A stretch of DNA of 24,697 nt from a virus: positions 1 to 24,697 of IMG/VR virus record IMGVR_UViG_3300031841_001534, one strand, 5' to 3'. Numbering within the stretch: position 1 is the stretch's first letter; the number at the start of each line of letters is the position of its first letter. Under the pieces are notes generated by a model. The model did no database searches, was not told the origin of the DNA, and was given only the letters and a program-made list of their open reading frames with translations. Position numbers and translations under genes: made by a program. Below are positions 1,367-24,697 of the stretch, one piece after another.

Positions 1367-1811
1367 AAAACTTAAAATAGGTTTTGGGCCTAATCATGTT
1401 GTTGCCAACAATGGTGTAACAGCATTATCTCGTTGGGGTTTCTGGTCGCCTTTCTTTACTGTTCTTGTATCTCGTGTGCATCCTATTGACCACGATAAGA
1501 TGTTTAATAATACAAGAGTAGATGCTAGAGTAATTTATCATAGTCATGAAACTAACTTCGTATCTTTTATATTTAAAGGAAAGTATACAGAGGAAAGAAA
1601 TGTTGATGGTAAAATTATAGTCAAAGAACGAAAGTGGTTTAATTATGTAAAGCGTGATACCTTTCATAGGATAAAATGTGATGACTATGCTTGGAGTATT
1701 CAAGCAGGGTTTACTAGAGATGAAAAAGTCAAAGTAAAAATTAATAATAAAATATATCCACATAGAAGATTATTTACTATGGGTGGTAGGAGTGATGGAA
1801 CTTTAGGATGA
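1338..1811 (+). CDS. Small cupin-fold protein, copy 2
   Basis: This 157-residue paralogue of the protein at 24-476 has His68-Ser-His70 followed by ETNFVSFIFKGKY, acidic residues at 85-86, and a distal His at 110 in DTFHRIKC, the expected cupin metal ligands. The start is ATG 1338, because AAGGGAGA at 1321-1328 lies at a workable distance from it; ATG 1329 would almost touch the ribosome site. The first 29 bases overlap the upstream gene, and the end overlaps the next gene as ATGA. Its placement directly ahead of a run of 2OG/Fe(II) oxygenases, which share the double-stranded beta-helix fold, suggests a related oxidative or metal-binding job. Substrate unknown. Confidence 0.75.
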   Translation: MKEFYSKICKKLKIGFGPNHVVANNGVTALSRWGFWSPFFTVLVSRVHPIDHDKMFNNTRVDARVIYHSHETNFVSFIFKGKYTEERNVDGKIIVKERKWFNYVKRDTFHRIKCDDYAWSIQAGFTRDEKVKVKINNKIYPHRRLFTMGGRSDGTLG

Positions 1812-2500
1812 TAAAAGTATTAAATGATGTAGACAGCACCGAAGTGAAAAATTATTGGAAGGTAACAGGAACAAATGATGAAACATTTCCTTACTTACTT
1901 ATTGATAAGTGGTACAACCCAGAAGAACTAGAGGGAATCTGGAAAGAACTGGATTTCTATCAGTCTTGCCCTGACCATCATCAAGTAAGAACAGAAGATG
2001 CAGAAACACCTGTTGCTAGAGAGCCAGGCGGTTTAGCAAGAAGTAGTGCGTTTAGATTTCATCTATGGGATGTGTATTCTCAAAACAGTAAAGGATATCA
2101 CTACTCACATATTTTAAGATGTAGGTATAAACAAAGGTCGCCAGAGTTTCATAACTTAGTGAAGAAACATTTACCCATACACTTTTTAAGTTTTGCTGGC
2201 ACAAACACAGATGGTACAATGGTATCGTACTATGAAGATGGTGATTACTATAAACCACATATTGATAGTATGATGTTTACTTGTTTGATATGGATTTTCA
2301 AAGAACCAAAACAATTTAAAGGTGGTGAGTTTGTTTTACCACAAGCTGGTGTTACGATACCCATGAAGAATAATCGTATGATATTGTTTCCTAGTTACTA
2401 CACTCATGCAGTAAATCCTGTTAAGTTTGATGGTGAAAAAAATCAAGGATTAGGTAGACACACTATAACACATTTTTATAATTGGGAGGGCGGAAATTGA
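1808..2500 (+). CDS. 2OG-Fe(II) oxygenase, prolyl-4-hydroxylase-like
   Basis: This 230-residue protein has the complete facial triad of a 2-oxoglutarate/Fe(II) dioxygenase: His151-x-Asp153 in YKPHIDS, a distal His200 in YYTHAV, and Arg217 in GRHTITHF, which would bind the 2OG carboxylate. The segment FKGGEFVL and the RMILFPS strand before the distal His are typical of the prolyl-4-hydroxylase-like phage proteins. The family couples decarboxylation of 2OG to hydroxylation of a protein, nucleotide, sugar or lipid substrate; which one cannot be told here. It overlaps its neighbours by 4 nt on both sides (ATGA at the start, TTGA at the end), so translation is probably coupled. It is expected to be cytoplasmic. 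Confidence 0.9.
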   Translation: MIKVLNDVDSTEVKNYWKVTGTNDETFPYLLIDKWYNPEELEGIWKELDFYQSCPDHHQVRTEDAETPVAREPGGLARSSAFRFHLWDVYSQNSKGYHYSHILRCRYKQRSPEFHNLVKKHLPIHFLSFAGTNTDGTMVSYYEDGDYYKPHIDSMMFTCLIWIFKEPKQFKGGEFVLPQAGVTIPMKNNRMILFPSYYTHAVNPVKFDGEKNQGLGRHTITHFYNWEGGN

Positions 2501-3033
2501 ATAAACAAATAAAAATATATGATAATATTTTTGATGTGCAGATGTTAAATTATCTAGACAACTATATTCAAGAATTGCCATATTACCCACATTCATCTAG
2601 CACACCAGATAAGAATAATTTTTTTGGTACTGAAAATCTTTATGGTGGTCATAATATTATTAATTTTATATCAGATGTGATAACTGAATATAATGGTAAA
2701 CAATTATTTAAAGAAACACCTACTGTAACTAGAGCATATGCAAACGCACATAACTATGGAAAACATAATGGTGGTCGTTGGCATACTGACGAGGGTGATA
2801 ATGGAAATGGTTGGTGTAGTGTAACTATGTTACTTTATTTACAAGAGTGGAATGGGAAATGGTTGGGTGGCACAATGTTTAAAGATGGTGAAGAAGTTGA
2901 TACAGTACCTTATGTTAGAAATCGTATGGTTGTATTTCCTGCTAACATTCCACACAAAGCAGAGTATCATTTAAATAAAGATTTTATGAGATTTAGTTTA
3001 GCATTTAAAATGTCAGGAAAACTTGATGTCTAA
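2497..3033 (+). CDS. 2OG-Fe(II) oxygenase
   Basis: This 178-residue protein has His96-x-Asp98 in GRWHTDEG, distal His153 in NIPHKAEY, and Arg165 in FMRFSLAF, so all iron and 2OG ligands are present. I place the start at TTG 2497: it overlaps the upstream TGA as TTGA and lies seven bases after a strong GGGAGG ribosome site (2484-2489). An earlier TTG at 2482 in the same frame would sit on top of that site. Between triad residues the protein has MLLYLQEWNGKWLGG, the hallmark strand pair preceding the distal His. It is poorly conserved against the other oxygenases here beyond the ligands, so it is probably not a recent duplicate. Substrate unknown. Confidence 0.88.
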   Translation: MNKQIKIYDNIFDVQMLNYLDNYIQELPYYPHSSSTPDKNNFFGTENLYGGHNIINFISDVITEYNGKQLFKETPTVTRAYANAHNYGKHNGGRWHTDEGDNGNGWCSVTMLLYLQEWNGKWLGGTMFKDGEEVDTVPYVRNRMVVFPANIPHKAEYHLNKDFMRFSLAFKMSGKLDV

Positions 3034-3733
3034 TTTAACAGGAAAAACAATATTAGTTACAGGTGCGACAAGTGGTATCGGTAATGCGATTGCAAACAAA
3101 CTAAAACAAAGTGGTGGAAATGTCATTGGTGTTTCTAGAAGAAAAGAAGATGTGAATAACTTTGATGGTAAGTGTATTGTTATAGAACTAACTAATGAAG
3201 AACAAATAAAAGAAGAACTTGCAAAGATAGAGAAACCAGACATACTAATTAACTGTGCTGGTTTAGGTATAGATGAAAAAGAGTTAGTAGAAACAACAAC
3301 AGAAGAATGGAATATGATGATTGATTGTAATTTAAAATCTATGTATCTACTTACAAGAGAACTTGTTCCTCACATGAAAGAAAATAATTGTGGTGTGATT
3401 GTAAATATGTCATCAATTTTTCATAAAGGTGAACAAGGTCAATGTTTATATTCAACTTGCAAATCAGCAGTCTTAGGTTTTACTAATTCACTTGCAAAAG
3501 AACTAGGACAATATAATATAAGAGTACACGCAGTAGCTCCAGGCTATACAAGAACTGCTATGACACAAAGATGGATAGACAAAGGTGTTGAACCACAAAT
3601 TATGGAAAGAACACCATTAAGAAAAATTGGTATGCCAGATGATATTGCAAAGTTAGTAAATTTTTTATGTTCAGATGAATCAGATTTTATGACAGGACAT
3701 GTAACTTATATTGATGGTGGTTTAGGATTATGA
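3026..3733 (+). CDS. Short-chain dehydrogenase/reductase (SDR), FabG-like
   Basis: This 235-residue classical SDR has the nucleotide-binding TGATSGIG at 12-19, NCAG at 76-79 (NNAG in most members), Asn102, the catalytic Ser in NMSS (127-130), Tyr142-x-x-x-Lys146 in YSTCK, APGYTRT near 171, and a C-terminal DGG. Length and motif spacing are those of a complete, probably active, NAD(P)-dependent oxidoreductase. SRR at 37-39 after the second strand hints at NADP preference. ATG 3026 is preferred over TTG 3023 because AGGA lies about eight bases upstream. It is embedded between two 2OG oxygenase genes and overlaps both, so it may oxidise or reduce a product of theirs; that is inference. Confidence 0.93.
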   Translation: MSNLTGKTILVTGATSGIGNAIANKLKQSGGNVIGVSRRKEDVNNFDGKCIVIELTNEEQIKEELAKIEKPDILINCAGLGIDEKELVETTTEEWNMMIDCNLKSMYLLTRELVPHMKENNCGVIVNMSSIFHKGEQGQCLYSTCKSAVLGFTNSLAKELGQYNIRVHAVAPGYTRTAMTQRWIDKGVEPQIMERTPLRKIGMPDDIAKLVNFLCSDESDFMTGHVTYIDGGLGL

Positions 3734-4479
3734 ATTTACATTATCAATATTATTGGTTCAAAGAAGTAATCCCACATGATGTGTGTGATAAAATAATTAA
3801 AATGGGAAATGAACAAATAGAATTAATTAGAAAAGATGGTGGTGATACATCTGGAACAACAAGAGGTGGTGGTGAAAAAACAAAGGATGATAAAAGGGTT
3901 AGTGCAAAAGAACTAACACCAAAGGAACAAAGTAATGGTGATTATTATGCTAGGGATTGTCAAGTTGCATGGTTTAATAATCAATGGTTATATGATTTAG
4001 TTTGGCCCTACTTAGAAGAGGCAAATGAAAGTTCTGGATGGAAGTGGGATATTGATTGGGCAGAAAGTTTTCAGTTTACAAAATATACTAAAGATGGATT
4101 ATACAACTGGCATAATGATGGTGGTTCTGACCATCATGGGAAATACATTCTTGCTGATGATGAACTAATAGAAAAATGTAAAAAAGAAAAAGTTGGTTTA
4201 CCTAACCTATATACAGAAGATAAAACTTTTGAGGGTAAGGTTAGAAAGATTAGTATGACAATGAACTTAACTGACCCTAAAGAATATGATGGTGGTAAGT
4301 TAAAATTTGATTTAAGTAAGACACATGATTCTGGAGTAGATATCATGGAAATAGAGGAGATAAATAGAAAGGGTTCTATTGTGTTTTTTCCTTCTTTTAT
4401 GTCGCACACAATAACACCCATAACTCGTGGTACACGATACTCGTTAGTGTTATGGGCACTAGGACAGCCTTGGAGATAA
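3730..4479 (+). CDS. 2OG-Fe(II) oxygenase, PKHD-like
   Basis: This 249-residue protein has His128-x-Asp130 in YNWHNDGG, distal His226 in FMSHTITP and Arg236 in GTRYSLVLW, the full 2OG/Fe(II) site. The strand MTMNLTDPKEYDGGKLKF and the KGSIVFFPSF segment before the distal His match the PKHD-type hydroxylase group (2OG-FeII_Oxy_3), a type common in marine myophages. A Gly/Thr/Asp-rich loop at 38-55 looks flexible. It begins with an ATGA overlap with the SDR. Target not predictable; protein hydroxylation is the usual guess for this group. Confidence 0.9.
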   Translation: MNLHYQYYWFKEVIPHDVCDKIIKMGNEQIELIRKDGGDTSGTTRGGGEKTKDDKRVSAKELTPKEQSNGDYYARDCQVAWFNNQWLYDLVWPYLEEANESSGWKWDIDWAESFQFTKYTKDGLYNWHNDGGSDHHGKYILADDELIEKCKKEKVGLPNLYTEDKTFEGKVRKISMTMNLTDPKEYDGGKLKFDLSKTHDSGVDIMEIEEINRKGSIVFFPSFMSHTITPITRGTRYSLVLWALGQPWR

Positions 4480-4481
4480 TG

Positions 4482-5171
4482 ATGGCAATTAGAAAACAAG
4501 AAAATGAAATATTTAATAAAAATGGTTTTGTCGTTCTTGACAAATTCATTGAGTATGAAACAAGTTTAATTTTGTTTCATCATGTAATGATGTCAGCAAG
4601 AAAAGCAAATTATGTTCAAGTGAATGAACCAGATTTATTTGATGATGAAAAACAACACTATGGTTACTTTGATAAATGTGGTTGTTTAAGTAAACCTGTT
4701 TGGAACAAATATGCTGATGGTGTAATTGAAACTGTATTAAGTTTAGCAACGCCTATGATTGAAGAAGTCGTTGGTAAAAAACTTATGCCGACATATAGTT
4801 GGGCAAGATTGTATGAACATGAAACTGCAATGGATAGACACATTGATAAAAGTGAGTGTGATGTAAGTGCAACTTTAACTTTAGGTTATGAGTTACACAA
4901 CATGAGTGATAAAGATAAAGAAACTTATTGTTGGCCCATATTCTTTGGTGATGCAAATGGAAGAAAAGGAACTAAAGGAACACCAATACAATTATTGCCA
5001 GGGCAACTATGTGTATATCAAGGAACTAAAGTAGAACATTGGAGAGAACCTTTTAGAGGGGTTCATCACGCACAAGTCTTTTTACATTGGGTAGAAAAGA
5101 AAGAAGAAAACGAACACTTGTATATTGATAGTAGACCTATGTTAGGATTAAATTCTGACTTTACAAAATGA
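4482..5171 (+). CDS. 2OG-Fe(II) oxygenase-like protein, unusual 2OG-binding residue
   Basis: This 229-residue protein has His120-x-Asp122 in MDRHIDKS and a distal His186 in KVEHWREPF. After the distal His the usual Arg-x-Ser of the 2OG clamp is replaced by VHHAQVFLHW (His195, His196, Gln198), although Arg188 and Arg192 lie close by and could take its place. The start is the second of two ATGs (4482): GGAG at 4472-4475 is six bases ahead of it but only three ahead of ATG 4479. An ATGA overlap joins it to the next gene. Length and the PGQLCVYQG strand fit the double-stranded beta-helix fold. Probably an active iron enzyme, with less certainty about cosubstrate than its neighbours. Confidence 0.82.
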   Translation: MAIRKQENEIFNKNGFVVLDKFIEYETSLILFHHVMMSARKANYVQVNEPDLFDDEKQHYGYFDKCGCLSKPVWNKYADGVIETVLSLATPMIEEVVGKKLMPTYSWARLYEHETAMDRHIDKSECDVSATLTLGYELHNMSDKDKETYCWPIFFGDANGRKGTKGTPIQLLPGQLCVYQGTKVEHWREPFRGVHHAQVFLHWVEKKEENEHLYIDSRPMLGLNSDFTK

Positions 5172-5875
5172 CAACAAATGATATTTGCTACACACCACTA
5201 GATGTATCTAACGCACCAGACTATTCTATTGATGATGTAAAAACATGGATAACCGAAAACACAGAAACTTTACAACAATGTGTAGATGATTTATGTAAGA
5301 GAGGTTTATCTGGACAAAAAGATGTTGACAAATATCCTTGGCAATTAGTTTTTGCATATTGGAATGAGTATGGTGGTTGGTTAAATGACTTTGATAAGAA
5401 GTTTCCAGAGTTATCAAAATACATGCACGAAGCATTTAATTTAAAAGAAGATGAATTGGAATCTATACTTTTATTACCTATGAATAATAATGTTACAGGA
5501 TATGGGTTTTGGCATAATGATGGCGATAGAGCAGGATATAGAATGTATTTAAATAATGATGTGGGTTCTTTGTTTCTTAGAAAAACTAAAAAACCTTATG
5601 ACAATAATCATTGGGTAAAGATAAAAGAATGTGATGACACATGGAATGATAGTGAGTTAGAAAGAACTGAACATGAATGTAAACTACTATCATCAAATCA
5701 ATGTTTTTATCTCAACAACTTTCGTTCAGCACATGCAACTTATGTAGAGGAACAACCAAAAGATTTACCTAGAATTGCTGTAATTATAAATCCAAAAGAA
5801 GTTCCTACTGATGATAGTTTAGTTATTAATTCAGCAAAAAAATATAAAGACTATGCGATAATGTATTATGAATAA
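5168..5875 (+). CDS. 2OG-Fe(II) oxygenase, beta-hydroxylase-like
   Basis: This 235-residue protein has His116-x-Asp118 in YGFWHNDGD, distal His189 in FRSAHATYV and Arg202 in PRIAVIIN. The metal and 2OG ligands are thus complete. The LNNFRSAHA stretch and short spacing to the Arg resemble aspartyl/asparaginyl beta-hydroxylase-like and related phage proteins more than the PKHD group. The N-terminal hundred residues are mostly helical and not recognisable, and could form a substrate-binding cap. It starts with an ATGA overlap and its end overlaps the next gene by 8 nt. Confidence 0.82.
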   Translation: MTTNDICYTPLDVSNAPDYSIDDVKTWITENTETLQQCVDDLCKRGLSGQKDVDKYPWQLVFAYWNEYGGWLNDFDKKFPELSKYMHEAFNLKEDELESILLLPMNNNVTGYGFWHNDGDRAGYRMYLNNDVGSLFLRKTKKPYDNNHWVKIKECDDTWNDSELERTEHECKLLSSNQCFYLNNFRSAHATYVEEQPKDLPRIAVIINPKEVPTDDSLVINSAKKYKDYAIMYYE

Positions 5876-6458
5876 AATGATGTTTCAAAAAAAAGAAAAA
5901 CAGTTAATGAAGTTTATACAGAACTTTAATATTAACATAACCGAAGATGATATGTTTAATCTGTTGAAGATTAAAAGAAGGTGGCCCTATTATCACCCAA
6001 CACAAAATGATAAACAACCAACTGTTGAAGTCATCTCTATGTATGGACAAAAACATAATTATCTAAATGATGATACAGGTTATCTTGACTTTGATAAAAT
6101 GAAATCTTTTTATGATAAAGGATTTACCATATTGATGGCAGATGTTTTAGATTTAACAGAGGAACTAAGAGAACTAGAAAAAGAATTAATTGCAAGAACA
6201 GGACTAGGTAATATTAGAGGTAACTTTTATTTTGGAAATGGTAAGCCTGGCATACACCCTAGTTTTAATTTACATTCTCATGGATATAATGTCATACAAA
6301 AACAAATCTATGGAACAAACTATTGGACTATAAATGACCAACAGTATGAAATACACGAACAAGAAATTATTATGATACCAGCACAAGCTTGGCACGAAGT
6401 TTATAAATCAGATGGAAAAAGACTTTCCCTAACTATCAATCTTGGTTATGGAGATTAA
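5868..6458 (+). CDS. JmjC/cupin-like iron oxygenase candidate
   Basis: This 196-residue protein has His136-Ser-His138 in FNLHSHGYN, then IYGTNYWTI, a distal His176 in AQAWHEVYK and Arg185 in KRLSLTINL. The HxH...H pattern and the short beta strands fit a cupin or JmjC-like fold rather than the HxD oxygenases around it. The N-terminal third is basic and helical. ATG at 5868 overlaps the upstream stop; a second ATG pair follows a few codons later, and no clear Shine-Dalgarno distinguishes them. A His in place of Asp/Glu is tolerated in cupins but not in most JmjC hydroxylases, so a cupin function is equally possible. Confidence 0.72.
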   Translation: MNKMMFQKKEKQLMKFIQNFNINITEDDMFNLLKIKRRWPYYHPTQNDKQPTVEVISMYGQKHNYLNDDTGYLDFDKMKSFYDKGFTILMADVLDLTEELRELEKELIARTGLGNIRGNFYFGNGKPGIHPSFNLHSHGYNVIQKQIYGTNYWTINDQQYEIHEQEIIMIPAQAWHEVYKSDGKRLSLTINLGYGD

Positions 6459-7014
6459 GGTATATGATAATTTTCTAGATGACAAATATCTAGACGAACT
6501 AAATGATTATAACATTTGGCAGTTAGTTGCAAAACAAGATGTGAAATGGGTGGACATACATAGTGAACCCACAAATGTATTTGAAAGAATAATCAAAAAA
6601 GAGTATCATAGAATATCGCCAACATATAACACATTCAAAGGATATGAATATTGGAGAGTTACTTTAAATTCATTTAATAATCCAACACTATCTTTACATC
6701 AAGACCTAGATGAAATTTTAGAAGAAAGAGAAGGTATAAAAAAACCTGCTAGTTTGAGTACAGTTTTGTATGGTTATCCACATCATGTGAAAGGTGGTAA
6801 TTTACAAATACAAGAAAATGAAATACAAGAATACGAACCGAAGTATAATAGATTAATTTGTTTTGATTCAAACTTACATCATCAAGTTTTGCCAGTAACT
6901 TTGGGAGTGAGAGTTGCACTTTCTGTAAACTTTTGGACTGAAAAACCTATTGGGTATCAAAGTAGTAATTTTAGGGTAAAAAAAAGAGGGGTTTCCCCCT
7001 CTAATCAATTCTAA
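6448..7014 (+). CDS. 2OG-Fe(II) oxygenase, 3' end overlapped by an opposing terminator
   Basis: This 188-residue protein has His84-x-Asp86 in LHQDLDE, His144/His145 in NLHHQVLPV and Arg155 in GVRVALSVNFW, the expected iron and 2OG ligands. YGYPHHVKGGNL is the strand pair between them. ATG 6448 is chosen; TTG 6442 in the same frame has no better ribosome site. The last residues (VKKRGVSPSNQF) are encoded by the A-run and GC-rich hairpin that act as the terminator of the opposing alkB-like gene, so this C-terminus is probably not conserved. It is the last gene of the long + strand oxygenase operon. Confidence 0.85.
   Translation: MEIKVYDNFLDDKYLDELNDYNIWQLVAKQDVKWVDIHSEPTNVFERIIKKEYHRISPTYNTFKGYEYWRVTLNSFNNPTLSLHQDLDEILEEREGIKKPASLSTVLYGYPHHVKGGNLQIQENEIQEYEPKYNRLICFDSNLHHQVLPVTLGVRVALSVNFWTEKPIGYQSSNFRVKKRGVSPSNQF
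6978..7002 (-). terminator. Rho-independent terminator for the alkB-like gene
   Basis: On the - strand a stem AGAGGGG/CCCCTCT (arms 6985-6991 and 6996-7002) with a 4-nt loop is followed by eight U residues (A-run at 6978-6985 on +). On the + strand there is no U-run after the hairpin, so it should act only on transcripts coming from the alkB-like gene. It lies within the last codons of the opposing oxygenase gene. Confidence 0.85.
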
Positions 7015-7112: not shown

Positions 7113-8204
7113 TTATTGTGAATATCCTGCTATAGCATTCATATCCTTTGCAATCTTTAATTCACCTTCTGATGCTTCTTCTTCATCCCATTTTGCTAAT
7201 TGTTTCTCCATGTACTTATGGAAAAGTGGTGGAATAAGTGCTAAAGCAAATAATGTGAAATATCCATTGCCACAATTTGGTGCTCCCACTTCATCTAATT
7301 CCCAGAAATGAGTTTCACCTCTATCGTGATGGTCTGCCTGTCTTCCTATTTCTATGAAGAACCAACTTGTGAACATTGTAGAATTATCCCACGAATGTCT
7401 GTAGTCAATTGGCGAACCTGTTTCTCTAATTAAACCATAGTGCTCTAAGTAGTTTAATGCTTCTAACTCAAAGTTAGAGATTAACCACAACATAGCCATA
7501 CATGCGATACCTGTCCAAGCACCAGCAAACCAGAATAAAGCGATTGTTGGTAATGACATTGCATAACCTCTAATCCATCTGTTCTGCCATGATAGGAATG
7601 GTACACCTAATCTTTTTAATCTTTGTTTTTCCATTGTGTATAGGAATTTACTCTGACCAAAATATGACTTAGGTAGATGTGCATATAAACTTCTACCTCT
7701 TGGAGCTGTTGCTGGGTCGTTTTCACAACCTAACTCTAAGTGGTGATTGTATACATGTGCATAACAGAAGTGTGAAGAACCACTTAACGCCATCATCCAT
7801 CTAGCGATTAAGAAACTAAATCCTTTAGTATGTGCTAACTCGTGTCCATAGATAATTCCTATACCAGCGAATATACCAGATGACACAACTGCACCTAATA
7901 GTTCAACACCTGCCATACCATTGTATATTTGATATGCAAGCACACATTGTAGAGCAATGAATACAGGTAACATAGCATACATTGTTAAATTCATTAACAA
8001 TGGATTTGCATTTAGTTCACCTTCATCATCAAATCCAGCACCCATAGTTTGTTTAGTATATAGAGTATCAATGATGATACCTACACCTAATAAAAATACC
8101 CCTGTCCATACCCAAGGCCCACCTGCTAATACACCGAACAAAGTCGCAAGTATTAATAGTGGTGCAATAAAGTATCGGGCATTTACTGCTATTTTCTTGA
8201 ACAT
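7113..8204 (-). CDS. alkB: AlkB-type integral-membrane di-iron monooxygenase (alkane 1-monooxygenase family)
   Basis: This 363-residue protein has the signatures of membrane alkane hydroxylases: HELAH at 121-125, H-x3-HH at 150-155 followed by ENDPATAPRG, NYLEHYG at 251-257, and RQADHH at 288-293. Hydrophobic segments near 11-30, 32-48, 70-93, 102-120, 213-230 and 231-246 fit the six-helix inner-membrane fold. The family hydroxylates terminal methyl groups of alkanes or related chains using O2 and electrons from rubredoxin or ferredoxin; no donor is encoded nearby. One classical ligand is changed: the first His of the third box is Gln289. AAAGGAGG lies five bases before the ATG. Sampled lines have about 42% G+C against about 31% in the adjacent genes. 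The substrate could equally be a fatty acid or other lipid. Family assignment is firm; substrate is not. Confidence 0.93.
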   Translation of the reverse strand: MFKKIAVNARYFIAPLLILATLFGVLAGGPWVWTGVFLLGVGIIIDTLYTKQTMGAGFDDEGELNANPLLMNLTMYAMLPVFIALQCVLAYQIYNGMAGVELLGAVVSSGIFAGIGIIYGHELAHTKGFSFLIARWMMALSGSSHFCYAHVYNHHLELGCENDPATAPRGRSLYAHLPKSYFGQSKFLYTMEKQRLKRLGVPFLSWQNRWIRGYAMSLPTIALFWFAGAWTGIACMAMLWLISNFELEALNYLEHYGLIRETGSPIDYRHSWDNSTMFTSWFFIEIGRQADHHDRGETHFWELDEVGAPNCGNGYFTLFALALIPPLFHKYMEKQLAKWDEEEASEGELKIAKDMNAIAGYSQ

Positions 8205-8354: not shown

Positions 8355-8362
8355 TATAAATA
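8355..8362 (+). promoter_or_regulatory. T4-type late promoter of the GNAT gene (leaderless arrangement)
   Basis: Exact TATAAATA preceded by CTCT. Five bases separate it from the ATG at 8368. T4 late transcripts start about six bases after the octamer, so the predicted first base is the A of the start codon. Confidence 0.85.
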
Positions 8363-8367
8363 ACTGC

Positions 8368-9057
8368 ATGACAACATATTTATCTAAAAACGAATTATCC
8401 TACGATATAGACTTTGCCGAAAATGACGACTATCTAGAAGTCGCCCAACTCTTTGACGAAGCATCTGAGGGTCTAGTCAAATATTATCATGATGATATAT
8501 TTAACACATCTGGCAACATATCAATTCCAAGCACAGGTATCGTAGAGTTTGCAAAATACATGAGAACAGATGTTACTGATATTACAGATGTCTATTCTGC
8601 TGGTGTAGATTTTGATAATGGTTATCATTACAAAATTACAAATACTGTCAAAGCAACTCACAGAGATAAAATAGTTGGAGCTGCTATATGTCTACCACAT
8701 AATAATGTTACCACGACCACATTTATGACAAATGAATGGAATACTGAAAAGAAAGCACATATACAAGTTTATTTTGATAACAAAGTTGCTGATGCTTGGT
8801 TCATAGAACAATTCATTGTTAAAGCACCATTCACTCGTCAAGGTATGGGAACACAAATATTAAATAAAGTTAAAGCACATGCCTCTGATAATAGTTATAG
8901 TAAAGTAAGTATTTTTTGTTACGATAAAAATACAGGTTCAAAAACATTTTTAGAAAGTCAAGGATTTAGTGTAACTAAAACTATTGATGTTAGTTCACAT
9001 CCTTTCTTTCAAAGTATATCAGTTGATAATCTTCATCAAATGGTTTGCACACTTTAG
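8368..9057 (+). CDS. GNAT-family N-acetyltransferase
   Basis: This 229-residue protein has the acetyl-CoA pyrophosphate-binding motif A near 155-175: FIVKAPFTRQGMGTQIL, containing the R/Q-x-x-G-x-G/A signature. It is followed by NTGSKTFLESQGF, the helix-loop expected of motif B. The N-terminal half is longer than in minimal GNATs and probably forms a substrate-specific extension. ATG 8368 is chosen because the late-promoter octamer ends five bases upstream; upstream in-frame starts lie before the promoter. It is a single-gene late transcript placed between two oppositely transcribed operons. Its stop overlaps the stop of the convergent gene. The acceptor (protein N-terminus, lysine, small amine or antibiotic) is unknown. 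Confidence 0.85.
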   Translation: MTTYLSKNELSYDIDFAENDDYLEVAQLFDEASEGLVKYYHDDIFNTSGNISIPSTGIVEFAKYMRTDVTDITDVYSAGVDFDNGYHYKITNTVKATHRDKIVGAAICLPHNNVTTTTFMTNEWNTEKKAHIQVYFDNKVADAWFIEQFIVKAPFTRQGMGTQILNKVKAHASDNSYSKVSIFCYDKNTGSKTFLESQGFSVTKTIDVSSHPFFQSISVDNLHQMVCTL

Positions 9058-9674
9058 AAGTCTATACATCTTCCTTTCATTTCCCAATCATCATATCTAG
9101 TAGGTTCTAATCCTTCTGTTCTTCCACCTATCTCTTTTACCTTTTCATTATAATAAACATTACCAGCAATACATATTCTATTACTATCTGTTAAGTTTTC
9201 TGGAACTTCATGTTTCAACCAAGATGGGAAAAATATTAACTCACCTTCTTTTGGTTGTATTTCTAAATCACTATCAGTAAATATTAAAGGTGGATTATTT
9301 TCTGGTAATTCTAGATGATAAACAAAAGTAAATATGCCAGGCCAATGATTATGTGGTGTTGCAAGTCCACTTGGTTCTGAAACTATACCCCATAGTTCAC
9401 TCACAAAAAATTCACCCCTAACCTCTCTCTTAAAATGTTGTTCGGTATAATTCTTTGCGATAATAGAAATCATTGAAACAAAATCTTCAAAGTCATCACC
9501 ATAACTTTTATAGAGTAACCAATTAGTCATTCCATATTTTTTAAATGCATTTTCTTTGTCTTGCATTTCTAATTCAATTCTAGGTTCTATATTATGAGCA
9601 CAGATTCTTTTTAGTCTTTCCTCAACACCAATATTATATCTTTCTATAATGTATTTGTTTTTGCCGTAATTCAT
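9054..9674 (-). CDS. 2OG-Fe(II) oxygenase (2OG-FeII_Oxy_5 / TIGR02466-like)
   Basis: This 206-residue protein has His108-x-His110 in ATPHNHWPG, then FTFVYHLELPE, GELIFFPSWL (144-153), distal His155 and Arg166 in NRICIAGNV. This arrangement fits the 2OG-FeII_Oxy_5 group, in which HxH replaces HxD and the PSWL strand leads to the distal His. The start is ATG 9674, which overlaps the upstream TGA as ATGA with GGAG a few bases before; TTG 9701 has no ribosome site. It is the last gene of the YtoQ-led - strand operon. It shares the G-x-LIF-x-PSWL strand with the gene before it, which lacks the iron ligands. Confidence 0.82.
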   Translation of the reverse strand: MNYGKNKYIIERYNIGVEERLKRICAHNIEPRIELEMQDKENAFKKYGMTNWLLYKSYGDDFEDFVSMISIIAKNYTEQHFKREVRGEFFVSELWGIVSEPSGLATPHNHWPGIFTFVYHLELPENNPPLIFTDSDLEIQPKEGELIFFPSWLKHEVPENLTDSNRICIAGNVYYNEKVKEIGGRTEGLEPTRYDDWEMKGRCIDF

Positions 9675-10138
9675 AAATGCTCCAATGGTATCGTGCAACA
9701 ACCTTGCCTCATTTCAACATCAAATCTACCCTCTACTGTAATTCTGGCATTATCTAACCAACTAGGATAAAAAATTAAACCACCAACATCACAAGTAATT
9801 TTTTTCTCACCAGCATGAAAATTAAATTTATTATTATCACAATATACCCAAGAAACTAAATGTGGAAAATTAATAGGTAGATTGTAACCATCTTTTTTAT
9901 CCACCATGATTATATTATCTTCCACAAGAACAGGCATAGCAACTTTAGTGTAAGATTGAACATATGTATTAGTTCCTCTTACAAACATTTGTGCAGAAAA
10001 TAGTTTTGCAGAACTTTTAAAATTCATATTAAAGTCGTCTTTTACTATTGTATACACAAAAGGATATTCTTCATTGATATCTACTTCTACAGAATATTTA
10101 ATATCACTTTCTTTTATTGGATTTAATTCTATTGACAT
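9671..10138 (-). CDS. Degenerate oxygenase-fold protein without visible iron ligands
   Basis: In this 155-residue protein the C-terminal GGLIFYPSWL (119-128) is nearly the same as GELIFFPSWL in the next gene, but the distal His is replaced (PSWLDNARI), and no HxD or HxH is visible in the expected place; only isolated His93 and His108 precede it. Arg132 or Arg138 could still bind a carboxylate. It therefore looks like a paralogue that kept the beta-helix fold and lost catalysis, perhaps as a partner subunit or binding protein of the adjacent oxygenase. It overlaps its neighbours by 10 nt (upstream) and 4 nt (downstream). An unrelated structural protein remains possible. Confidence 0.65.
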   Translation of the reverse strand: MSIELNPIKESDIKYSVEVDINEEYPFVYTIVKDDFNMNFKSSAKLFSAQMFVRGTNTYVQSYTKVAMPVLVEDNIIMVDKKDGYNLPINFPHLVSWVYCDNNKFNFHAGEKKITCDVGGLIFYPSWLDNARITVEGRFDVEMRQGCCTIPLEHL

Positions 10139-10632
10139 ATTGATTTCATCACCGATATAACTTGTTCATAATTTTGACACCATGCTAAAGCATGAGAATC
10201 AATCTCTTTTAGTGGATGTATAAGTTTTTCTGGGTGTACCACAATGAAAGGTTTATTGTTTGCATGTAAACAACCAGCTTCAAATGCAACATTCCATTGA
10301 CGATAGTAGTCTAACTCACCACCTATTCCAAAAGTAACAACTGCAAAATCACATTCTTTGATTAGAGATTGTATTCTAGTTTGATTGATTTTAGCAGATT
10401 TAATACCTCTGAAAAAATACTTCTTGTCATTTTCACCCATGTGCATAGGTGGTTCTGGTATTGGTTCTTCACAAACAGGTTCTAATATATCACCAACAGC
10501 ATCAGATTCCTCATGATTACAATTAGGTGAAGTAAACTGAATAGGTAATCCTTCATTCATTACCATTCCATTTAATAACTTTCGCCAGTTGGTGTGAATT
10601 TCACCACTACAATAGACATTCCAAGTTTTCAT
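10129..10632 (-). CDS. YtoQ-like protein (nucleoside deoxyribosyltransferase superfamily)
   Basis: This 167-residue protein matches the YtoQ family across its length: WNVYCSGEIHTNWR at 4-17, GLPIQFTSPNCNHEESDAVG, an FRGIKSAKINQTR segment, FAVVTFG, QWNVAFEAG with Glu118, NKPFIVV and HPLKE. The fold is that of nucleoside 2-deoxyribosyltransferases, and Glu118 sits where their catalytic Glu lies; the reaction of YtoQ itself is not settled. A 25-residue Glu/Pro-rich insertion (around 50-70) is not usual. ATG 10632 is chosen: the predicted transcription start near 10652 rules out ATG 10671, and GAG lies seven bases ahead of it. First gene of a three-gene operon. Confidence 0.82.
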   Translation of the reverse strand: MKTWNVYCSGEIHTNWRKLLNGMVMNEGLPIQFTSPNCNHEESDAVGDILEPVCEEPIPEPPMHMGENDKKYFFRGIKSAKINQTRIQSLIKECDFAVVTFGIGGELDYYRQWNVAFEAGCLHANNKPFIVVHPEKLIHPLKEIDSHALAWCQNYEQVISVMKSICQ

Positions 10633-10658
10633 ATTCATCTCATAACTAATTAATAGAC

Positions 10659-10688
10659 ATAATAACAGCACTCAACATACTTTGTCAA
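10659..10688 (-). promoter_or_regulatory. Sigma70-like promoter of the YtoQ operon
   Basis: On the - strand, a perfect TTGACA (10683-10688) and TATTAT (10659-10664) are separated by 18 bases, with TGT ahead of the -10 (extended -10). It has the same layout as the alkB-like promoter. It lies back to back with the late promoter at 10723. Confidence 0.75.
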
Positions 10689-10722: not shown

Positions 10723-10730
10723 TATAAATA
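10723..10730 (+). promoter_or_regulatory. T4-type late promoter for gp13-gp17
   Basis: Exact TATAAATA in CTTATAAATACTAG, 21 bases before the gp13 ATG, with AGGA at 10741-10744 as ribosome site. It should drive the neck and terminase genes. Confidence 0.88.
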
Positions 10731-15594: not shown

Positions 15595-15903
15595 TTATAG
15601 AAAGGTTGGGTCTAGTAAATCGTTTTCTATTTTAATCAAACAGTTAGAACAAACTATCTTAGATGAATCCACTAGTCTTTTGACAGTTTTCCTACTAGTG
15701 CTATTCATTCCTACTCTTTTAATAGTCTTTCTTATCTCTTTATCATGGGGGTAAAATTTTAAACAAGCTATCTCTGATTCATCACAATGTACACATTTAT
15801 TATTTTCTAAATATTGGTTCAAAGAAGAAACTCTTTTACGATAATTTCGTTTTGTAACCTCTTTAATAGTTTCTTTATACTTTTTGTAATGACTACTTGA
15901 CAT
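15595..15903 (-). CDS. HNH-like zinc-finger protein lacking the final catalytic His
   Basis: This 102-residue protein has CVHC at 37-40, His53 in FYPHDKE and CSNC at 85-88, the zinc-ribbon and first His arrangement of small phage HNH endonucleases (CxxC, DH, CxNCH). The residue after CSNC is Leu rather than His, so the last catalytic/metal His is missing. The N-terminus is basic (KKYKETIKEVTKRNYRKR) and could bind DNA. ATG 15903 is chosen because a - strand TATAAATA ends five bases before it; longer frames start upstream of that promoter. It is encoded antisense between gp17 and gp18, a typical site for free-standing homing endonucleases. May be a decayed nuclease or a small DNA-binding protein. 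Confidence 0.7.
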   Translation of the reverse strand: MSSSHYKKYKETIKEVTKRNYRKRVSSLNQYLENNKCVHCDESEIACLKFYPHDKEIRKTIKRVGMNSTSRKTVKRLVDSSKIVCSNCLIKIENDLLDPTFL

Positions 15904-15908
15904 AATTT

Positions 15909-15916
15909 TATTTATA
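15909..15916 (-). promoter_or_regulatory. T4-type late promoter of the HNH-like gene (leaderless arrangement)
   Basis: Exact TATAAATA on the - strand, five bases (AAATT) before the ATG at 15903. The predicted transcript start coincides with the start codon. It diverges from the gp18 promoter at 15960. Confidence 0.78.
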
Positions 15917-15959: not shown

Positions 15960-15967
15960 TATAAATA
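15960..15967 (+). promoter_or_regulatory. T4-type late promoter for gp18-gp19
   Basis: Exact TATAAATA, 36 bases before the gp18 ATG, with AGGAG at 15993-15997 as ribosome site. Confidence 0.88.
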
Positions 15968-18564: not shown

Positions 18565-18572
18565 TATAAATA
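18565..18572 (+). promoter_or_regulatory. T4-type late promoter for gp20 and the head-core genes
   Basis: Exact TATAAATA in CCTTATAAATATAGG, 33 bases before the gp20 ATG, with GGAG at 18594-18597. A T-run (18554-18561) precedes it, but no hairpin was seen there. Confidence 0.87.
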
Positions 18573-21714: not shown

Positions 21715-21722
21715 TATAAATA
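21715..21722 (+). promoter_or_regulatory. T4-type late promoter for gp22
   Basis: Exact TATAAATA directly after the gp21 stop and 40 bases before the gp22 ATG, with AGGAG at 21750-21754. Confidence 0.86.
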
Positions 21723-23079: not shown

Positions 23080-23087
23080 TATAAATA
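23080..23087 (+). promoter_or_regulatory. T4-type late promoter for gp23
   Basis: Exact TATAAATA four bases after the gp22 stop and 25 bases before the gp23 ATG. AAGGAG at 23098-23103 is the ribosome site. A dedicated promoter fits the large amount of capsid protein needed. Confidence 0.9.
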
Positions 23088-24463: not shown

Positions 24464-24486
24464 AGGACACTTCGGTGTCCTTTTTT
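24464..24486 (+). terminator. Rho-independent terminator after gp23
   Basis: AGGACAC (24464-24470), tetraloop TTCG, GTGTCCT (24475-24481), then an uninterrupted T-run to 24486. The UUCG loop and seven-pair stem make it a strong, textbook terminator. Confidence 0.93.
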
Positions 24487-24500
24487 GTTTCTGAAACTCT

Positions 24501-24508
24501 TATAAATA
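24501..24508 (+). promoter_or_regulatory. T4-type late promoter of the tail-tube-like gene (leaderless arrangement)
   Basis: Exact TATAAATA preceded by CTCT, five bases (CTAGT) before the ATG at 24514, the same spacing as at 8355. Predicted transcription start equals the start codon. Confidence 0.85.
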
Positions 24509-24513
24509 CTAGT

Positions 24514-24697
24514 ATGACAACATCAACATCACCACTAAACAGACAACCATCTAAGTTAGACTATACAAGTCCTACACAGTTTCGTTTTGTAATTAATCAG
24601 TTACCGAAAGTAGAATACTTTACTGTTGCTGGTAATATTCCAGGCATAACTTTAGATGAAATAGAACTTGGCACACCACTAAAAAACATTCCATTAA
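24514..24697 (+). CDS. Tail-tube-like structural protein, partial (3' end outside window)
   Basis: The visible 61 residues begin MTTSTSPLNRQPSKLDY, then TQFRFVINQLPKVEYF and VAGNIPGITLDEIELGTPL. The order (FRF/FRV-x-I, then F-x-x-x-A-x-x-x-PxITL-x-x-IEL) parallels gp19 at 18012, so it probably shares the tail-tube fold, like T4 gp19 and the tube-base proteins. It has no Shine-Dalgarno sequence; the late promoter lies immediately before the ATG. Which T4 gene it equals cannot be decided from a third of the protein. Confidence 0.65.
   Translation, partial: MTTSTSPLNRQPSKLDYTSPTQFRFVINQLPKVEYFTVAGNIPGITLDEIELGTPLKNIPL

Follow-up and report, generated by a model that had tools for sequence, protein, structure and literature searches.

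A predicted leaderless class of T4-type late genes in marine phages, with the promoter octamer five bases before the ATG

What kind of message would be made from a gene whose late promoter ends almost at its start codon? The question is raised by a GNAT acetyltransferase gene in the virus record IMGVR_UViG_3300031841_001534, a genome fragment of 24,697 bases that was analysed whole (the window), in which the octamer TATAAATA ends exactly five bases before the ATG. A first-pass annotation had claimed that this exact spacing (N5, where Nn denotes n bases between octamer and start codon) occurs three times, and that gp13, gp18, gp20, gp22 and gp23 carry leaders instead. Both claims were confirmed: all three N5 repeats are present, and the five other octamers stand at longer distances, each with a ribosome site (Table 1). 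The terminase of the window is closest to those of the marine phages Melnitz (host Methylophilales), Mosig and HTVC008M (host Pelagibacter).

Table 1. Late promoters, predicted leaderless genes and associated features of the window, with bS21 genes of three isolates (SD, Shine-Dalgarno site)
Feature	Position	Strand	Remarks
Late octamer TATAAATA of GNAT gene	8355..8362	+	predicted -13 to -6
GNAT five-base spacer ACTGC	8363..8367	+	predicted -5 to -1, pyrimidine at -1
GNAT acetyltransferase gene, predicted leaderless	8368..9057	+	A of ATG = predicted +1; Pfam PF00583, E 4e-8
Leadered late promoter, gp13-like gene	10723..10730	+	N21, SD
HNH-endonuclease-like gene, predicted leaderless	15595..15903	-	PHROG 2255, E 5.8e-5; homologue in Melnitz
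HNH-like gene five-base spacer AAATT	15904..15908	-	
Late octamer of HNH-like gene	15909..15916	-	exact TATAAATA
Leadered late promoter, gp18	15960..15967	+	N36, SD
Leadered late promoter, gp20	18565..18572	+	N33, SD
Leadered late promoter, gp22	21715..21722	+	N40, SD
Leadered late promoter, gp23	23080..23087	+	N25, SD
Terminator after gp23	24464..24487	+	AGGACACTTCGGTGTCCT then T-run
Late octamer of gene after gp23	24501..24508	+	exact TATAAATA
Five-base spacer CTAGT, gene after gp23	24509..24513	+	
Tail-tube-fold (tail completion) gene, predicted leaderless	24514..24697	+	cut by window end; PHROG 45
bS21 gene, HTVC008M	91228-91431		
bS21 gene, Mosig	9983-10132		
bS21 gene, Melnitz	35461-35619		

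Three octamers at a five-base spacing

The octamer occurs ten times in the window relative to an expectation of 4.5, a number attained by 1 of 100 shuffles. Two copies (939, minus strand; 1207, plus strand) lie inside a coding ORF, and three of the ten are followed, after exactly five bases, by a gene-opening ATG. For ten octamers and the window's ATG frequency, the chance of at least three N5 sites at one preset spacing is p = 0.0013, a value that does not include the requirement for a real gene.

The three genes differ in their surroundings. The GNAT gene has no same-strand neighbour, being flanked by one divergent and one convergent gene, and a scan for sigma-70 promoters near it returned background only (7 found vs 6.2 expected). 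All four of its relatives are at N5. The HNH-like gene is the sole minus-strand gene between terL and gp18, and all 60 of its relatives are at N5, with 41 different spacer sequences among them and a constant spacer length. It is at N5 in all 47 loci, in 46 of which the divergent gp18 of the same intergenic region is found at N32-N60. Finally, the gene after gp23 was assigned to the tail-tube fold from a full-length copy in source L009 (PHROG 45, E 2.5e-36), and 34 of the 45 members of its family are at N5. It is preceded by a terminator, AGGACAC-TTCG-GTGTCCT plus a T-run, whose stem ends 19 bases before the octamer. Such terminators lie just upstream of 23 of the 34 N5 sites in this family, nearly all of them 6-20 bases before the octamer and with differing hairpin sequences, although they are not general to N5 sites, being confined to the tail-tube family and a few others. 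Where a terminator is present in this family, little RNA from upstream would read through; the octamer is then the sole promoter in evidence, and there is next to no room for a leader.

Spacing and gene starts among relatives

Relatives were collected around terL, GNAT, gp23, gp2 and gp25 and, together with seven whole isolates, gave 284 sources and 3.5 Mb of sequence, in which unique octamers TATAAATA followed by an ATG with an ORF of at least 50 codons were counted. The enrichment of N5 over N4 and N6, which had been proposed as a check, was borne out at 146, 0 and 9 sites, respectively. The N5 sites represent 19 protein families, although a few families supply many of them and the relatives were gathered around chosen genes. 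Spacings N0 to N3 returned 0, 1, 2 and 2 sites, N7 to N9 returned 3, 14 and 1, and N10 to N14 a total of 6; beyond these, a broad spread extends from N15 to N58, where the non-N5 octamers mostly stand. No spacing below 15 other than N5 covers more than five protein families. In the terL-based set plus the window, 76 sites are at N5, none at N4 and one at N6, terL itself not being an N5 gene.

It might be argued that the prominence of N5 reflects chance, or the common descent of a handful of genes in AT-rich sequence, as the three sites of one window are only modest evidence when taken alone (p about 0.001) and a few families weigh heavily in the count. This explanation deserves almost no credence, because 19 unrelated protein families stand at N5 and the spacer bases vary while the spacer length does not. 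In addition, ATGs that open short ORFs have no N5 peak (6 at N5 vs about 8 per spacing), indicating that the fixed spacing is a property of real genes. A chance origin of the peak was ruled out by this control and by the variable spacer bases at constant length.

The spacing is not absolute, as the gp25 family mixes N5 (20 sites) with N6 (5), N7 (1), N8 (12) and N9 (1). Across families, 27 sites at N6-N9, mostly of gp25, resemble the N5 sites in having a pyrimidine before the ATG and no Shine-Dalgarno site. At these, either initiation is displaced or the message can carry a leader of one to four bases.

Misplaced gene starts were also considered as a source of the pattern and ruled out. An in-frame stop lies upstream in all 146 N5 ORFs (at a median of 36 bases), an upstream start preceded by a Shine-Dalgarno site is available in just five of the 146, and the N-terminus is unchanged between N5 and Shine-Dalgarno-led orthologues of the portal, gp25, tail-tube and other proteins. 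With octamer position 1 left free, 19 of 21 N5 sites in HTVC008M, Melnitz and Mosig are exact annotated starts, including those of gp2, gp25, CsgF, a baseplate protein and the Mosig tail-tube gene.

Start codons at N5 comprise 141 ATG, one GTG and no TTG, such that non-ATG starts are essentially absent at this spacing. In source L011, an HNH homologue (near 4038, minus strand) has GTG in place of ATG at N5 and may represent a leaderless GTG start. In Melnitz (129242-129285), L209 (near 9792) and L222 (near 1887), the N5 ATG opens an ORF of 8-9 codons that overlaps a Shine-Dalgarno-led tail-tube start, as if these loci were caught between both start modes. These few side cases resemble the 5'-terminal AUGs described on Shine-Dalgarno-led mRNAs of E. 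coli (PMC4965119).

Promoter, transcription start and leader

Single-base variants of the octamer with a clear N5 peak are those at position 1 (G 28, C 16, A 7) and position 2 (C 11), each with no sites at N4. The tolerated changes thus fall mainly at -13 and -12 and match the late promoters of T4 and Aeh1, which vary at the same two positions (PMC2988020). Homologues of the late sigma factor gp55 are encoded by HTVC008M, Melnitz and Mosig (E about 1e-20). The N5 sites therefore resemble the T4 late promoters of the gp55/gp33/gp45 system (PMC2988020) in their octamer, in its tolerated positions, in a predicted +1 about six bases downstream, and in the gp55 homologues of related isolates; we infer the late timing of the N5 genes from the octamer alone. 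Unlike the N5 class, the late genes of T4 have leaders and Shine-Dalgarno sites, with no annotated gene start at N5.

The Shine-Dalgarno site, which had been described as missing from the three genes, is found at just 1 of the 146 N5 sites, vs 264 of 324 leadered genes (126 of 171 at N15-30 and 138 of 153 at N31-60). Moreover, a pyrimidine immediately precedes the ATG at 145 of 146 N5 sites, compared with 186 of 324 leadered genes. RNA polymerase prefers a pyrimidine at -1 and a purine at +1, and the bias therefore fits a transcription start at the A of the ATG. The leadered late promoters point to the same base: their A fraction rises from 0.33 at base 5 after the octamer to 0.67 at base 6, and the pyrimidine-purine step is maximal at bases 5/6 (0.48, vs 0.12-0.35 elsewhere), which would put +1 at base 6, corresponding to the A of an N5 ATG. 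The numbering used in a review of T4, in which the first octamer base is -13, results in the same +1 (PMC2988020).

Taken together, these observations make it very probable that, in marine phages of the HTVC008M/Mosig/Melnitz kind, the N5 genes form a class of T4-type late genes with leaderless messages. In this reading, the late RNA polymerase, made up of the host core and the phage gp55 sigma, would bind TATAAATA at -13 to -6 and initiate the transcript at the A of the start codon, set exactly at +1 by the spacer of five bases. The resulting mRNA would begin with 5'-AUG, having neither leader nor Shine-Dalgarno site, and ribosomes, probably as 70S particles, would start translation by recognising this terminal AUG; both the position of the RNA 5' end and the mode of ribosome binding are inferred. 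The separate leaderless late class proposed by the first-pass annotation is thus supported by the N5 peak in unrelated families, the lack of Shine-Dalgarno sites, the -1 pyrimidine, the terminators of one family and the +1 estimate from leadered promoters. The proposal also needed refinement, since a minority at N6-N9 look alike, octamer positions 1 and 2 are changeable, and the pattern characterises one marine group, not the T4-like phages as a whole.

Two other readings of the same sites have to be weighed. At -13 to -6, the octamer stands where a Shine-Dalgarno site would normally lie, and some N5 genes (CsgF, HTVC008M) closely trail a same-strand gene, as would be expected if it were an AU-rich translation signal in longer transcripts from upstream and not the promoter of these genes. 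This is improbable, given that the identical octamer serves Shine-Dalgarno-led late genes from 15-58 bases away, that its tolerated variants are those of late promoters, and that the -1 pyrimidine rule fits transcription initiation; the HNH-like gene, alone on its strand, and the closely spaced terminators of the tail-tube family likewise argue against it. Slightly less probable still is a start inside the spacer, or within one or two bases of the ATG, that would yield a leader of one to four bases or an ATG that is partly missing. Bacterial transcription starts often spread across neighbouring bases, and the N6-N9 sites would suit such a start, but the empty N4 class and the exclusion of purines at -1 of N5 sites suggest that initiation has been sharpened onto the A.

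Distribution and known systems

Thirteen other T4-like genomes (T4, RB49, 44RR, KVP40, Acj9, phiM12 and seven cyanophages; about 2.5 Mb) contain five exact N5 sites, with no peak and no more than at N1, indicating that the leaderless class is concentrated in the HTVC008M/Mosig/Melnitz group. N5 as a general feature of the T4 superfamily was thereby ruled out. When four of the five sites were looked up, just two proved to be annotated starts, both in the cyanophage P-SSM4 (AY940168, 107316 and 172881), where they open a plastoquinol terminal oxidase gene and a hypothetical gene. The single N5 ATG of T4 (131167, minus strand) lies between genes 31 and rIII. In Acj9 (HM004124, 164065-164138), an N5 ATG stands in frame with holin t, 60 bases ahead of its annotated start, and initiation there restores residues that align with T4 t; this upstream ATG is probably the true start.

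The ribosomal protein bS21 is encoded by all eight near-complete or large genomes of the N5 class (three isolates and five contigs of at least 80 kb), vs none of the 13 other T4-like genomes; psbA was not found in the five bS21-bearing large contigs. It is tempting to suggest a translational switch with the leaderless late class as one of its arms, in which phage bS21 could alter late ribosomes and thereby make them discriminate between leaderless and Shine-Dalgarno-led messages. This is a long shot, as common descent alone may account for the link and P-SSM4 has its two N5 gene starts without bS21.

Leaderless mRNAs are known from several systems. In Deinococcus-Thermus, a -10 element adjacent to ORFs gives rise to leaderless mRNA (PMC12340547), and there, as in the N5 class, a -10 type element just before the start codon takes the place of the ribosome-binding site. 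The element of that class is, however, the host sigma motif TANNNT, 6-7 bases before the ORF, whereas here it is a phage late octamer with a fixed five-base spacer; the N5 class works in a like manner but, lacking TANNNT, is no member. Natural leaderless mRNAs such as phage lambda cI (PMC9031893) also share a start codon at the 5' end, the absence of a Shine-Dalgarno site and a preference for AUG, although cI is a single repressor and the N5 class is made up of late genes of lytic growth, some of them coding for virion proteins. A passing remark in the literature describes phage transcripts as often leaderless (PMC5312081), and in a survey of pelagimyophages the prediction of middle and late promoters was unsuccessful (PMC7029224). 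While leaderless mRNAs and T4 late promoters are each known, a rigid fusion of both was not found in the literature searched, the coverage of which is incomplete, and priority is uncertain.

If the class is as predicted, one structural rule would split the late genes of a widespread marine phage group into those with a promoter fused to the start codon and those with a promoter and a ribosome-site leader. The N5 rule would also serve as a sharp handle for locating late promoters and gene starts in these phages, and leaderless translation would become testable in SAR11 and OM43 hosts. The pattern also raises the question why virion genes such as gp2, gp25 and the tail-tube-fold gene should use N5 starts.

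Other genes of the window also merit mention. On the minus strand, positions 7113-8204 encode a 363-aa protein resembling fatty-acid desaturases and alkane monooxygenases (PF00487, E 3e-27), here in a T4-like phage, and this gene adjoins a run of 2OG-Fe(II) oxygenase genes (1808-7014 and 9054-9701). A YtoQ-like nucleoside 2-deoxyribosyltransferase (PF11071, E 1e-39) is encoded on the same strand at 10132-10671.
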